33,770 nt of DNA from Shackletoniella antarctica (GTDB lineage Bacteria; Cyanobacteriota; Cyanobacteriia; Phormidesmidales; Phormidesmidaceae): the NCBI GenBank assembly GCA_003241845.1, contig QBMN01000027.1, forward strand, positions 1 through 33,770. The letters run 5' to 3'. Each line of letters opens with the position of its first letter. Within the stretch, counting starts at the first letter, position 1. Below are positions 30,883-33,527 of this stretch, piece after piece. Below the pieces are notes generated by a model. It was given only the letters and a program-made list of their open reading frames with translations. It made no database searches and had not been told where the DNA came from. Made by a program: the position numbers and the translations under genes.

Positions 30883-31536
30883 CTAGCTGTCGGAGCCGTT
30901 GCCGGCCCAGGGGCGGCGCAGGTGGGGGGGTAGATGGGTACAGTCGTTGAGATGACGCACAAAGGGGCCGTACTCCAGCATCTCAACTAGGGAGAGGGCG
31001 GTGACGGGCATGGCCAGGCGATCGCGATACCGACCAACATCGATGCCCAGCAGGGTGCAGAGCATGATCCGCAGGGTGGCCTTGTGGGAGACCACCAGCA
31101 CGTTGCCGTCGGGGTAGGTGTCTTCGATTTCGGCCAGTATGTCGGAGCTGCGGCGGGCTACCTGCATAGCCTTTTCGCCATCGGTGGGGGTGTTCCAGGC
31201 GGGGTCGGCCAGCCAGCGAATGTAGTCGTCATGGAAGGCGAGGTTGACCTCCGCTGGGGCCATGCCCTCCCATTGGCCAAAGGCAAGTTCCCGCAGGTTA
31301 TGCCGCTGCTGCACTGGTAGTCCGGTAATTTGGCAGAGGGGGGCGACGGTGGCGGCAGCATGGTTGAGGGGGCTGCAAAAAATGGCCTTCCAGTCGAGGT
31401 GGTGGTAGGCCTTGGCAAAATAGTCGGCCATTTGCCGTCCCGAGGCCGTTAGCGCCACCCCATCCCGGCTACAGTAGCGGCCGGTGCGGCAATAATCGGT
31501 TTCGGCGTTGCGGAGCAGGTAGAGCCTCAGGGGCAT
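30883..31536 (-). CDS. Histidine phosphatase fold protein lacking the catalytic histidine
   Basis: Protein of 217 residues in the histidine phosphatase (phosphoglycerate mutase-like) superfamily. The phospho-accepting motif RHG is RNA: N10 stands where the next gene has H10. The arginine of the S-P-L-R-R-A motif is also lost (SPLNHAAAT). E83 in LRELAFGQWEG and the second histidine H151 (VVSHKAT) remain. It is therefore probably not a normal phosphatase or mutase. The open reading frame is intact, with a start 12 bases after the intact paralogue, which argues for a retained, altered role. The tail (WAGNGSDS) is short. Not a pseudogene by reading frame. Confidence 0.85.
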   Translation of the reverse strand: MPLRLYLLRNAETDYCRTGRYCSRDGVALTASGRQMADYFAKAYHHLDWKAIFCSPLNHAAATVAPLCQITGLPVQQRHNLRELAFGQWEGMAPAEVNLAFHDDYIRWLADPAWNTPTDGEKAMQVARRSSDILAEIEDTYPDGNVLVVSHKATLRIMLCTLLGIDVGRYRDRLAMPVTALSLVEMLEYGPFVRHLNDCTHLPPHLRRPWAGNGSDS

Positions 31537-31548
31537 AGGGTGCGGGCC

Positions 31549-32193
31549 TCAGGTGCAGGGTAGCGATCGCAGCTGGTCGCTCAGGTGAGAGCGATCGCCA
31601 ATGGTGTGAAACAGCGGCCCCCGCTGGCTCAGCTCGACCACGCTGACGGCGGCCACGGGCATATCCATGCGATCGCGGTAGCGACCCACATCAATGCCCA
31701 GCAGGGTACAGAGCAAAATCCGAATGGTGGCCTTGTGGGAGACGATCAAAATATGGCCGCTGGGGTAGGCGCGCTCAATTTCATCGAGTACCTGGGCTGA
31801 GCGGCGGGCAATATCCACCGCCCGCTCGCCCCCCACCGGGGCATACCAAGCCGGGTCGGTGAGCCAGGCCACATACTCGTCGTGGTGCTCTCGGTCGACC
31901 GCCGTGGGGTGCATACCCTCCCAGCGGCCATACATGACTTCGCGCAGGCCGTCGCGCAGCTGCATCTCTAGCCCCAGAGACTCGCACAGGGGCCGGGCGG
32001 TTTCTACCGCCCGCCGCAGGGGGCTGACGTAGGCAGCGCTCCAGGGCAAGTGGGCATAGGTATCGGCAAATTCCTGGGCCATGGCCACCCCCTCGGGGGT
32101 CAGACCAGGGTCGTTTTCGGGCATGCCACAGTAGCCACCCGTGAGGCTATAGGCGGTTTGGCCGTGGCGCAAAAAGTAGAGAAAAACTCCCAT
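31549..32193 (-). CDS. Histidine phosphatase family protein (intact catalytic set)
   Basis: Protein of 214 residues. The catalytic residues of the superfamily are all present: R9-H10-G11 in FLRHGQT, the arginine of SPLRRAVETARP, E85 in LREVMYGRWEGM, and H153 in IVSHKAT. Substrate is not readable; related cyanobacterial and bacterial proteins include broad-specificity phosphatases and phosphoglycerate mutase-like enzymes. It is the upstream member of a two-gene unit with the degenerate paralogue 12 bases downstream; both share DPAW and TLLGIDVGRYRDR blocks, so they arose by tandem duplication. recR lies upstream on the same strand after 253 bases. Confidence 0.9.
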   Translation of the reverse strand: MGVFLYFLRHGQTAYSLTGGYCGMPENDPGLTPEGVAMAQEFADTYAHLPWSAAYVSPLRRAVETARPLCESLGLEMQLRDGLREVMYGRWEGMHPTAVDREHHDEYVAWLTDPAWYAPVGGERAVDIARRSAQVLDEIERAYPSGHILIVSHKATIRILLCTLLGIDVGRYRDRMDMPVAAVSVVELSQRGPLFHTIGDRSHLSDQLRSLPCT

Positions 32194-32446: not shown

Positions 32447-33025
32447 TCAAGTCAGATCGCGCCGCCCTTCTAGGGCACGGGCCAGGGTGACCTCGTCGGC
32501 GTATTCTAAATCGCCCCCCATGGGCAAACCAAAGGCGATGCGAGTGACCCGCGTGAAGGGCTTGAGCAACTGCCCGACGTAGAGGGTGGTCGTGTCACCC
32601 TCAATACTGGGGCTAATGGCCATGATCACCTCCTGGGTGCTCTCCTGGCTGACCCGGTGCACCAGGGGGCCAATGTTGAGCTGCTCAGGGCCAACGCCGT
32701 CCATGGGCGAGATCAGCCCCCCCAGCACGTGGTAGCGGCCCCGATACTCGCGGGTTTTCTCAATGGCGATTACGTCCCGTGAGTCGGCTACGACGCAGAG
32801 GGTGTGTGGGTCGCGGCTGGGGGCTCGACAGATCTCGCACACCGGGTCTGCCGACAGGTGAAAGCACACTGAGCACTGGCCCACCTGGCTCTTGGCATCG
32901 AGCAGCGCTTGGGCTAGGGCCTGCACCTCGCTCTGGGGGCGCTTGAGAATGTGCAGCGCTAGACGCTGGGCCGACTTGGGGCCAACCCCCGGCAGCCGCT
33001 GAAATTCTTCGATTAGTCGTGCCAA
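32447..33025 (-). CDS. recR: Recombination mediator RecR
   Basis: Protein of at least 192 residues. RecR helps load RecA on gapped DNA with RecF and RecO. The helix-hairpin-helix [17 protein letters not shown], the four-cysteine zinc finger (CSVC ... CEIC), the Toprim region ([27 protein letters not shown] in parts) and [15 protein letters not shown] are visible. The first standard start in frame is TTG 33025. The codons just upstream read Y-T-R-P-L before ARLIEEF, which matches the usual RecR N-terminus, and AAGGAG lies 9 bases before an in-frame ATC at 33040-33038. The true start may therefore be that ATC. It is divergent from the hypothetical gene at 33156. Confidence 0.94.
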
Positions 33026-33049
33026 GGGACGGGTGTAGATGGGGCCAGG

Positions 33050-33055
33050 CTCCTT
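33050..33055 (-). promoter_or_regulatory. Shine-Dalgarno of recR pointing to an ATC start
   Basis: Read on the minus strand this is AAGGAG. It lies 9 bases before ATC (33040-33038) and 24 bases before TTG 33025. Normal spacing favours initiation at or near the ATC. Confidence 0.5.
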
Positions 33056-33072
33056 GCACTGCTCTCTGTCTC

Positions 33073-33121
33073 AATTGTACGGGCAAGGCTGTTATGTGGG
33101 GAATTGTACGGGCAAGGCTGT
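33073..33121. repeat. 20-bp direct repeat in the recR/hypothetical gene promoter region
   Basis: AATTGTACGGGCAAGGCTGT occurs at 33073-33092 and again, exactly, at 33102-33121, a 29-base period. It lies between the divergent recR start and the plus-strand gene start at 33156. Its AATTGTA-x-GGGC core recurs after that gene. Confidence 0.75.
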
Positions 33122-33155
33122 ACGGAGCAGGGATGCCTATGGCAGACTTGTGCCT

Positions 33156-33527
33156 ATGACAGACCTGAGCGGCATGTGGCTGGGCACCTACTGGCAGCGG
33201 GAGACGCCAACCCGCTTTGAGACGACGCTGGTGCAGGGGGGCAACACCCTCAGCGGCAGCGTGCTTGACGATGGCTATCTGGGGGAGGCACAGCTCAGCG
33301 GTACGGTGACGGGTCGTCAGGTGCGGTTTGTGAAGCGATATATTGCCCAGAGCGTGCCCTCCATTGACTACATCGGTACAGTCTCAGAGGACGGCGATCG
33401 CATCACCGGGCAGTGGAGTATTGCTGGGTTTGACAGCGGCCCCTGGGAAGCCCACCGCAGCGAAGACGACCTCACCATCAGCTGGCAGAACGTTATGGCG
33501 CGAGACCTAGTGTCTACCTCTAGCTAG
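33156..33527 (+). CDS. Hypothetical protein, lipocalin-like beta-rich
   Basis: Protein of 123 residues that I cannot assign to a named family. It starts MTDLSGMWLGTYWQRETPTRF and has an alternating pattern of short strands and turns (FETTLVQGGNTLSGSVLDD, LSGTVTGRQVRFVKRY, YIGTVSEDGDRITGQWSI), suggesting an all-beta barrel. I chose ATG 33156, because the residues encoded upstream overlap the direct repeats and the recR leader. No signal peptide or membrane segment is seen. The repeated S-G-x-W/G and D-G-D-x-I-x-G-x-W phrasing is also found in cyanobacterial proteins of unknown function, from memory. It is flanked by related short repeats on both sides. Confidence 0.7.
   Translation: MTDLSGMWLGTYWQRETPTRFETTLVQGGNTLSGSVLDDGYLGEAQLSGTVTGRQVRFVKRYIAQSVPSIDYIGTVSEDGDRITGQWSIAGFDSGPWEAHRSEDDLTISWQNVMARDLVSTSS

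Follow-up and report, generated by a model that had tools for sequence, protein, structure and literature searches.

A histidine phosphatase homologue with fixed pocket substitutions encoded directly behind an intact relative in cyanobacteria

Described relatives and the tandem locus

Hydrogenobacter thermophilus PspA (iPSP1; structure 4ij5, with 4ij6 for its H9A mutant) is a phosphoserine phosphatase that carries R-H-A and the core arginine, and the histidine at its position 85 is presumably important. Chiba et al. reportedly described H. thermophilus iPSP2, in 2012, as a PspA/PspB heterodimer in which one subunit is without activity of its own. Aquifex aeolicus HFP (9mmh), which acts on a riboflavin intermediate, has a phosphate pocket made up of R8, H9, N15, R58, E82 and H149, and both HFP and iPSP1 are dimers in solution (available portion of PMC12051542). 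The available portion of a further source (PMC10728186) describes flea acid-phosphatase-like salivary proteins from which the RHG histidine has disappeared and which now bind biogenic amines and leukotrienes, and it gives a less than 10-fold loss for the His to Ala change in rat fructose-2,6-bisphosphatase; thus, activity may survive the loss of this histidine.

The window analysed here is the whole stretch of 33,770 nucleotides from Shackletoniella antarctica (contig QBMN01000027.1), and it holds two histidine phosphatase homologues in tandem (Table 1), which we call UP (the upstream copy) and DN (the downstream copy). Both match Pfam His_Phos_1 (PF00300) over its full length, UP with 186.5 bits and DN with 161.8 bits against a cut-off of 21.7. 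The first-pass annotation of this DNA credited the upstream copy with a full set of core residues, and its motifs and Pfam score agree that UP is intact. Neither protein reaches the cut-off of an NCBIfam equivalog; the PspA equivalog (cut-off 350 bits) gives 107.1 bits for DN and 95.6 for UP, and CobC alpha-ribazole phosphatase (TIGR03162, cut-off 162.9 bits) gives 110.3 for DN and 118.2 for UP. The substrate, like the partnership and the ligand discussed below, is something that we infer.

Table 1. Positions of genes, codons and other features of the UP-DN locus in the window
Feature	Position	Strand	Description
UP	31549..32193	-	Intact branch-1 histidine phosphatase, 214 aa, stop codon included; R9-H10-G11, S16, SPLRR with core R61, E85, H153
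UP-DN intergenic gap	31537..31548	-	12 nt, UP stop to DN start
DN	30883..31536	-	Histidine phosphatase fold with rewritten phosphate pocket, 217 aa, stop codon included
Asn10, codon AAC	31507..31509	-	Replaces nucleophilic His; N in 28/28 DN, H in 161/161 distinct relatives
Ala11, codon GCC	31504..31506	-	A in 28/28 DN; G in 155 and A in 6 of 161 distinct relatives
Cys16, codon TGC	31489..31491	-	Pocket position of Aquifex HFP N15; C in 28/28 DN, S in 161/161 relatives
Ser23, codon AGC	31468..31470	-	S in 28/28 DN, G in 161/161 distinct relatives
His59, codon CAT	31360..31362	-	Replaces core Arg; H in 28/28 DN, R in 160/161 relatives, the other masked
DN-specific C-terminal tail, residues 208-217	30886..30915	-	GNGSD plus one residue in 27/28; the 28th meets a contig edge
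recR	32447..33025	-	Same-strand upstream neighbour of UP, outside the UP-DN system

The gene recR lies near the pair in 18 of 22 loci examined (one a contig-end fragment), and a glucose/sorbosone dehydrogenase-like gene lies downstream of DN. Divergent from recR is a 162-aa open reading frame (window 33039-33527) that is conserved (61-88%) beside recR in 14 of the 22 loci and has no match to Pfam or NCBIfam.

PspA is the closest solved relative of DN by sequence (4ij5, E 3e-26) and also by structure, since the DN model superposes on it with a Z of 24.1 and an rmsd of 3.2 over 198 residues, as expected of a common fold, and the phosphate-pocket architecture is the same. The branch-1 fold is likewise common to DN and Aquifex HFP (Z 21.5). 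Mean pLDDT of the DN model is 75.5, with residues 85-92 and 103-125 below 50; the UP model is poor (mean 66.3). Alignment to 4ij5 places F86 of DN and Y88 of UP at PspA H85, so neither has a PspA-type histidine there, and DN has N10 and H59 where PspA has the nucleophile and the core arginine.

The DN pocket and its conservation

DN reads R9-N10-A11, S55-P-L-N58-H59, E83 and H151. We compared the 28 DN copies with 191 rows of relatives including repeats (161 distinct); column counts were made without the UP of locus L081 (truncated, 158 aa) and without the partial L110, and the residue-by-residue reading covers part of the profile-search matches. R9, H10, S16, G23, E83 and H151 are present in all 161 distinct relatives, and R9, E83 and H151 are present in all 28 DN. 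Transfer of the Aquifex HFP pocket residues through the alignment to PspA (4ij5) places that pocket at DN positions 9, 10, 16, 59, 83 and 151, and it is at three of these six that DN differs from HFP; compared with active cyanobacterial relatives, DN likewise keeps three and has replaced three, whereas UP agrees with those relatives. Of the features expected of a branch-1 member, the second core histidine and the acidic proton donor are present in DN, and the nucleophilic histidine and the pair of core arginines are not. UP has H10 in all 27 complete copies (the 28th is truncated) and has both core arginines.

The replacements are concentrated in the pocket. Sixty-five columns are at least 95% conserved in the active rows, and DN differs at 8 of these, namely 3 of 6 pocket columns versus 5 of 59 others (Fisher p 0.021). 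Within DN the deviating columns 10, 11, 16, 23 and 59 are each invariant, whereas 64, 80 and 199 vary; G80, near E83, is relaxed in DN. DN retains 54 family-wide residues.

The first-pass annotation had described an Asn in place of the nucleophilic His with E83 and H151 kept, and had named the recurrence of N10 and of the arginine loss in orthologues as the point to check. All 28 DN carry N10, E83 and H151, and H59 accompanies N10 in every one. It had also read Asn-His in place of both core arginines, of which the change of R59 to His stands; loss of both is ruled out, since DN retains R9, and position 58 lies outside the core set, with K, R, Q, H, S, N and others there in active relatives. 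That annotation did not mention three more fixed changes in or beside the pocket (A11, C16, S23), nor that H59 is invariant or that DN has an additional tail at its C terminus.

Selection on the pair was estimated from pairwise dN/dS. The DN median is 0.092 (290 of 378 pairs usable), and the UP median is 0.057 (273 of 351 pairs usable, from 27 sequences, the truncated UP of L081 being excluded); values for C-type relatives were set aside because two paralogues are mixed there. The DN reading frame is intact in all 28 copies, and at about 0.10 its dN/dS, which had been suggested as a check on this gene, shows no drift towards 1. DN has therefore lost catalytic residues under purifying selection, as a pseudoenzyme does. 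Because the substitutions are fixed, 54 family residues and a new tail are kept and dN/dS is low, the DN pocket, judged from sequence comparison, is one that was rewritten and then conserved, and not one in decay.

Distribution and origin of the pair

When the 63 genomes of the window's order were searched with a profile, 28 proved to have DN: 25 of the 26 genomes with the window's genus code and all 3 from two other genera. Strong UP orthologues occur in exactly these 28 genomes (27 above 440 bits and one, truncated, at 326), and the remaining 35 genomes of the order have neither DN nor a strong UP match. One genome of the window's genus code (G421) lacks DN, and a strong UP match is absent from it too. 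In locus L081 (genome G413) the UP gene upstream of DN is cut to 158 aa with its start disrupted, through either a draft-assembly frameshift or a real loss. In searches at wider scope at most seven candidates were scored per genome. Among 386 genomes of the phylum (E 1e-60) no match outside the DN group scored above 306 bits, versus 431-477 for DN, and across 388 genomes of the class (E 1e-92) all 26 matches fell inside this group. A remote Bifidobacterium match (L031; 33% over 115 residues) was left out.

We also collected 22 orthologous loci from records named Nodosilinea, Leptolyngbya, Phormidium and related cyanobacteria (72-91% identity), and N10 and H59 are present in all 22, which are largely the same assemblies as the 28. 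The peptide patterns used for that scan covered the N10 region and so bias it towards N10 carriers; the whole-genome profile searches were pattern-free.

UP is followed by DN on the same strand in 28 of 28 pairs, with a gap of 7, 11, 12, 13 or 15 nt. The first-pass annotation had the downstream copy 12 bases away and in frame; the 12 nt hold in the window, whereas among the 28 pairs the spacing (7-15 nt) and the frame vary, and these gaps rule out a conserved in-frame arrangement that might have hinted at fusion. The partial correlation of DN with UP distances given RecR is 0.44 (18 sequences each), a value reached in none of 2000 label shuffles. This is weak evidence for coupling of UP and DN, because adjacency and shared descent can yield such a correlation and label shuffles keep the phylogeny. 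UP's nearest relatives in family f9 occur without such a neighbour: in the three genomes of this family that were read, the UP-type gene has neither A nor DN inside about 1.5 kb, and each of these genomes has one match at E 1e-60 in the whole genome. Thus, UP-type enzymes can work alone, and the f9 pattern counts against an obligate UP-DN partnership.

In trees of 160 and 91 rows all DN sequences fall into one clade (100% support), whose branch has a length of about 0.8 changes per site; the UP sequences also form a single clade, which joins active B-type enzymes from families f6 and f9. The place of DN is beside the active A-type enzymes of f6, at low support (65/82), and since the midpoint root of the careful tree falls on this long DN branch, the placement may be pulled by branch length. 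Joining DN and UP in a single clade costs 12.7 log units (p-AU 0.097), and so is disfavoured, not rejected. Family f6 itself has A and B in tandem on one strand at 25 of 30 loci, with A upstream and a gap of 3-71 nt, and both keep the nucleophile and core-arginine motifs intact. This tandem resembles the UP-DN unit in that B groups with UP and A is nearest DN in the tree, at the low support given; it differs in that both members are live by motif and in gene order, A being upstream of B whereas DN is downstream of UP.

Read in this way, a recent duplication of UP probably does not explain DN, and an A-type origin of DN is favoured, not proved. The pair likely descended from two live enzymes, A and B, of which the A member would have lost catalysis once, in the stem of the three genera. 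The first-pass idea of a conserved, altered partner of a live enzyme is supported and needs amending in one respect. Conservation and adjacency stand (28/28), whereas DN is probably not simply a paralogue of its neighbour, since UP goes with the B type and DN lies near A. Since family f6 keeps two live neighbours, the likely states before and after conversion to a pseudoenzyme can be compared.

Other close homologues were seen alongside. The window's genome has, elsewhere, an intact C-type phosphatase, a third close relative (contig C278, L001). Two C-type genes stand in tandem in 9 of 20 loci fetched (L091-L110), 61-97 nt apart and with motifs intact in both. Contig C264 of the same genome (L002, L006) carries an open frame of 467 residues in which two histidine phosphatase domains, each with RHG, are fused, and at contig C111:75338-75901 (L005) a histidine phosphatase match is interrupted by a single TGA, which may mark a pseudogene or an assembly error.

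Possible roles of DN and comparison with known systems

The observation made in the first-pass annotation is confirmed and is stronger than first reported; its interpretation is partly supported. In this group of filamentous cyanobacteria the DN pocket is changed in a fixed, conserved way and the DN gene always directly follows that of a related intact phosphatase, a combination that points to a non-enzymatic partner or sensor and not to a decaying copy. We favour, with moderate confidence, the reading that DN is a conserved branch-1 pseudoenzyme that acts as a non-catalytic subunit or ligand-sensing regulator of the live UP and whose gene comes second in their two-gene unit. With the nucleophile (H10N), one phosphate-binding arginine (R59H) and the polar side chain of position 16 (S16C) gone from its pocket, DN would be unable to form the normal phosphohistidine intermediate. 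Its partner would be UP, probably in a heterodimer comparable to the dimers of this family, and DN would either stabilise UP or adjust its activity, the latter through a phosphorylated or another small ligand bound where the pocket has been rewritten. A partner role is the simplest because DN is conserved, fold-competent, nucleophile-less, directly behind a live homologue and, among the genomes searched, never without UP. It is from co-occurrence, strict adjacency and the modest partial distance correlation that we infer a role for DN as regulator, scaffold or ligand sensor.

The same fixed and non-random pocket substitutions would also be expected if DN were an independent ligand-binding sensor or carrier with a reused pocket, co-transcribed with UP through membership in a pathway and not bound to it. 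The flea branch-2 proteins that lost the catalytic histidine and became binders (available portion of PMC10728186) give this a precedent, albeit from another branch and kingdom, and the strict co-occurrence and adjacency with UP (28/28) fit a partner somewhat better; we regard an independent binder as possible, at a clearly lower probability. That DN is still a phosphatase of altered chemistry, with H59, H151 or C16 as nucleophile or with low activity in the absence of H10, seems rather improbable, given that the nucleophile and one core arginine are gone together. Such a phosphatase would nevertheless account for the invariance of R9, E83 and H151 and of the new His59 and Cys16 in the pocket, and the rat fructose-2,6-bisphosphatase mutant shows that activity may survive the loss of the histidine (available portion of PMC10728186). 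More speculatively, the side chains of C16, H59, H151, E83 and N10, if they converge as the pocket positions of homologues imply, might form a rebuilt transition-metal or redox-sensitive site, or H59 might be a relocated phospho-accepting histidine, so that DN would switch UP in response to a metal, the redox state or a metabolite; this is a long shot. A catalytic residue that has moved is known from the WNK kinases, with their relocated catalytic lysine.

Decay and error fare much worse. DN does evolve faster than UP by median dN/dS, and G80 is relaxed, as might be expected of a decaying duplicate under relaxed constraint. However, dN/dS far below 1 rules out neutral decay, and with 28 of 28 frames open, five replaced sites each fixed and a new tail conserved, a decaying duplicate is very improbable. 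The probability of a single-strain mutation or a sequencing error is negligible; 28 assemblies agree, which rules this candidate out, and the identical residues span three genus codes and recur in the 22 named-record loci, largely the same assemblies.

Among known systems, iPSP2, reportedly a hetero-oligomer of two related histidine phosphatases, would be the nearest functional analogue of UP-DN, and we offer it as a lead. The flea proteins resemble DN in belonging to the histidine phosphatase superfamily without the RHG histidine; they differ in being branch-2, animal and salivary proteins that have lost both catalytic histidines, whereas DN is a branch-1 bacterial protein whose gene has an intact-enzyme partner. 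Pairs of live and dead enzymes are well known among kinases and protein tyrosine phosphatases. Our search of the open-access literature, with most subscription journals outside its scope, turned up no account of such a live-dead tandem among branch-1 bacterial histidine phosphatases. The UP-DN system has few defining substitutions and its product is a small, probably soluble protein that is easily tested. Here a pairing of a known kind, that of a probable pseudoenzyme with an active homologue, occurs in the branch-1 bacterial histidine phosphatases.
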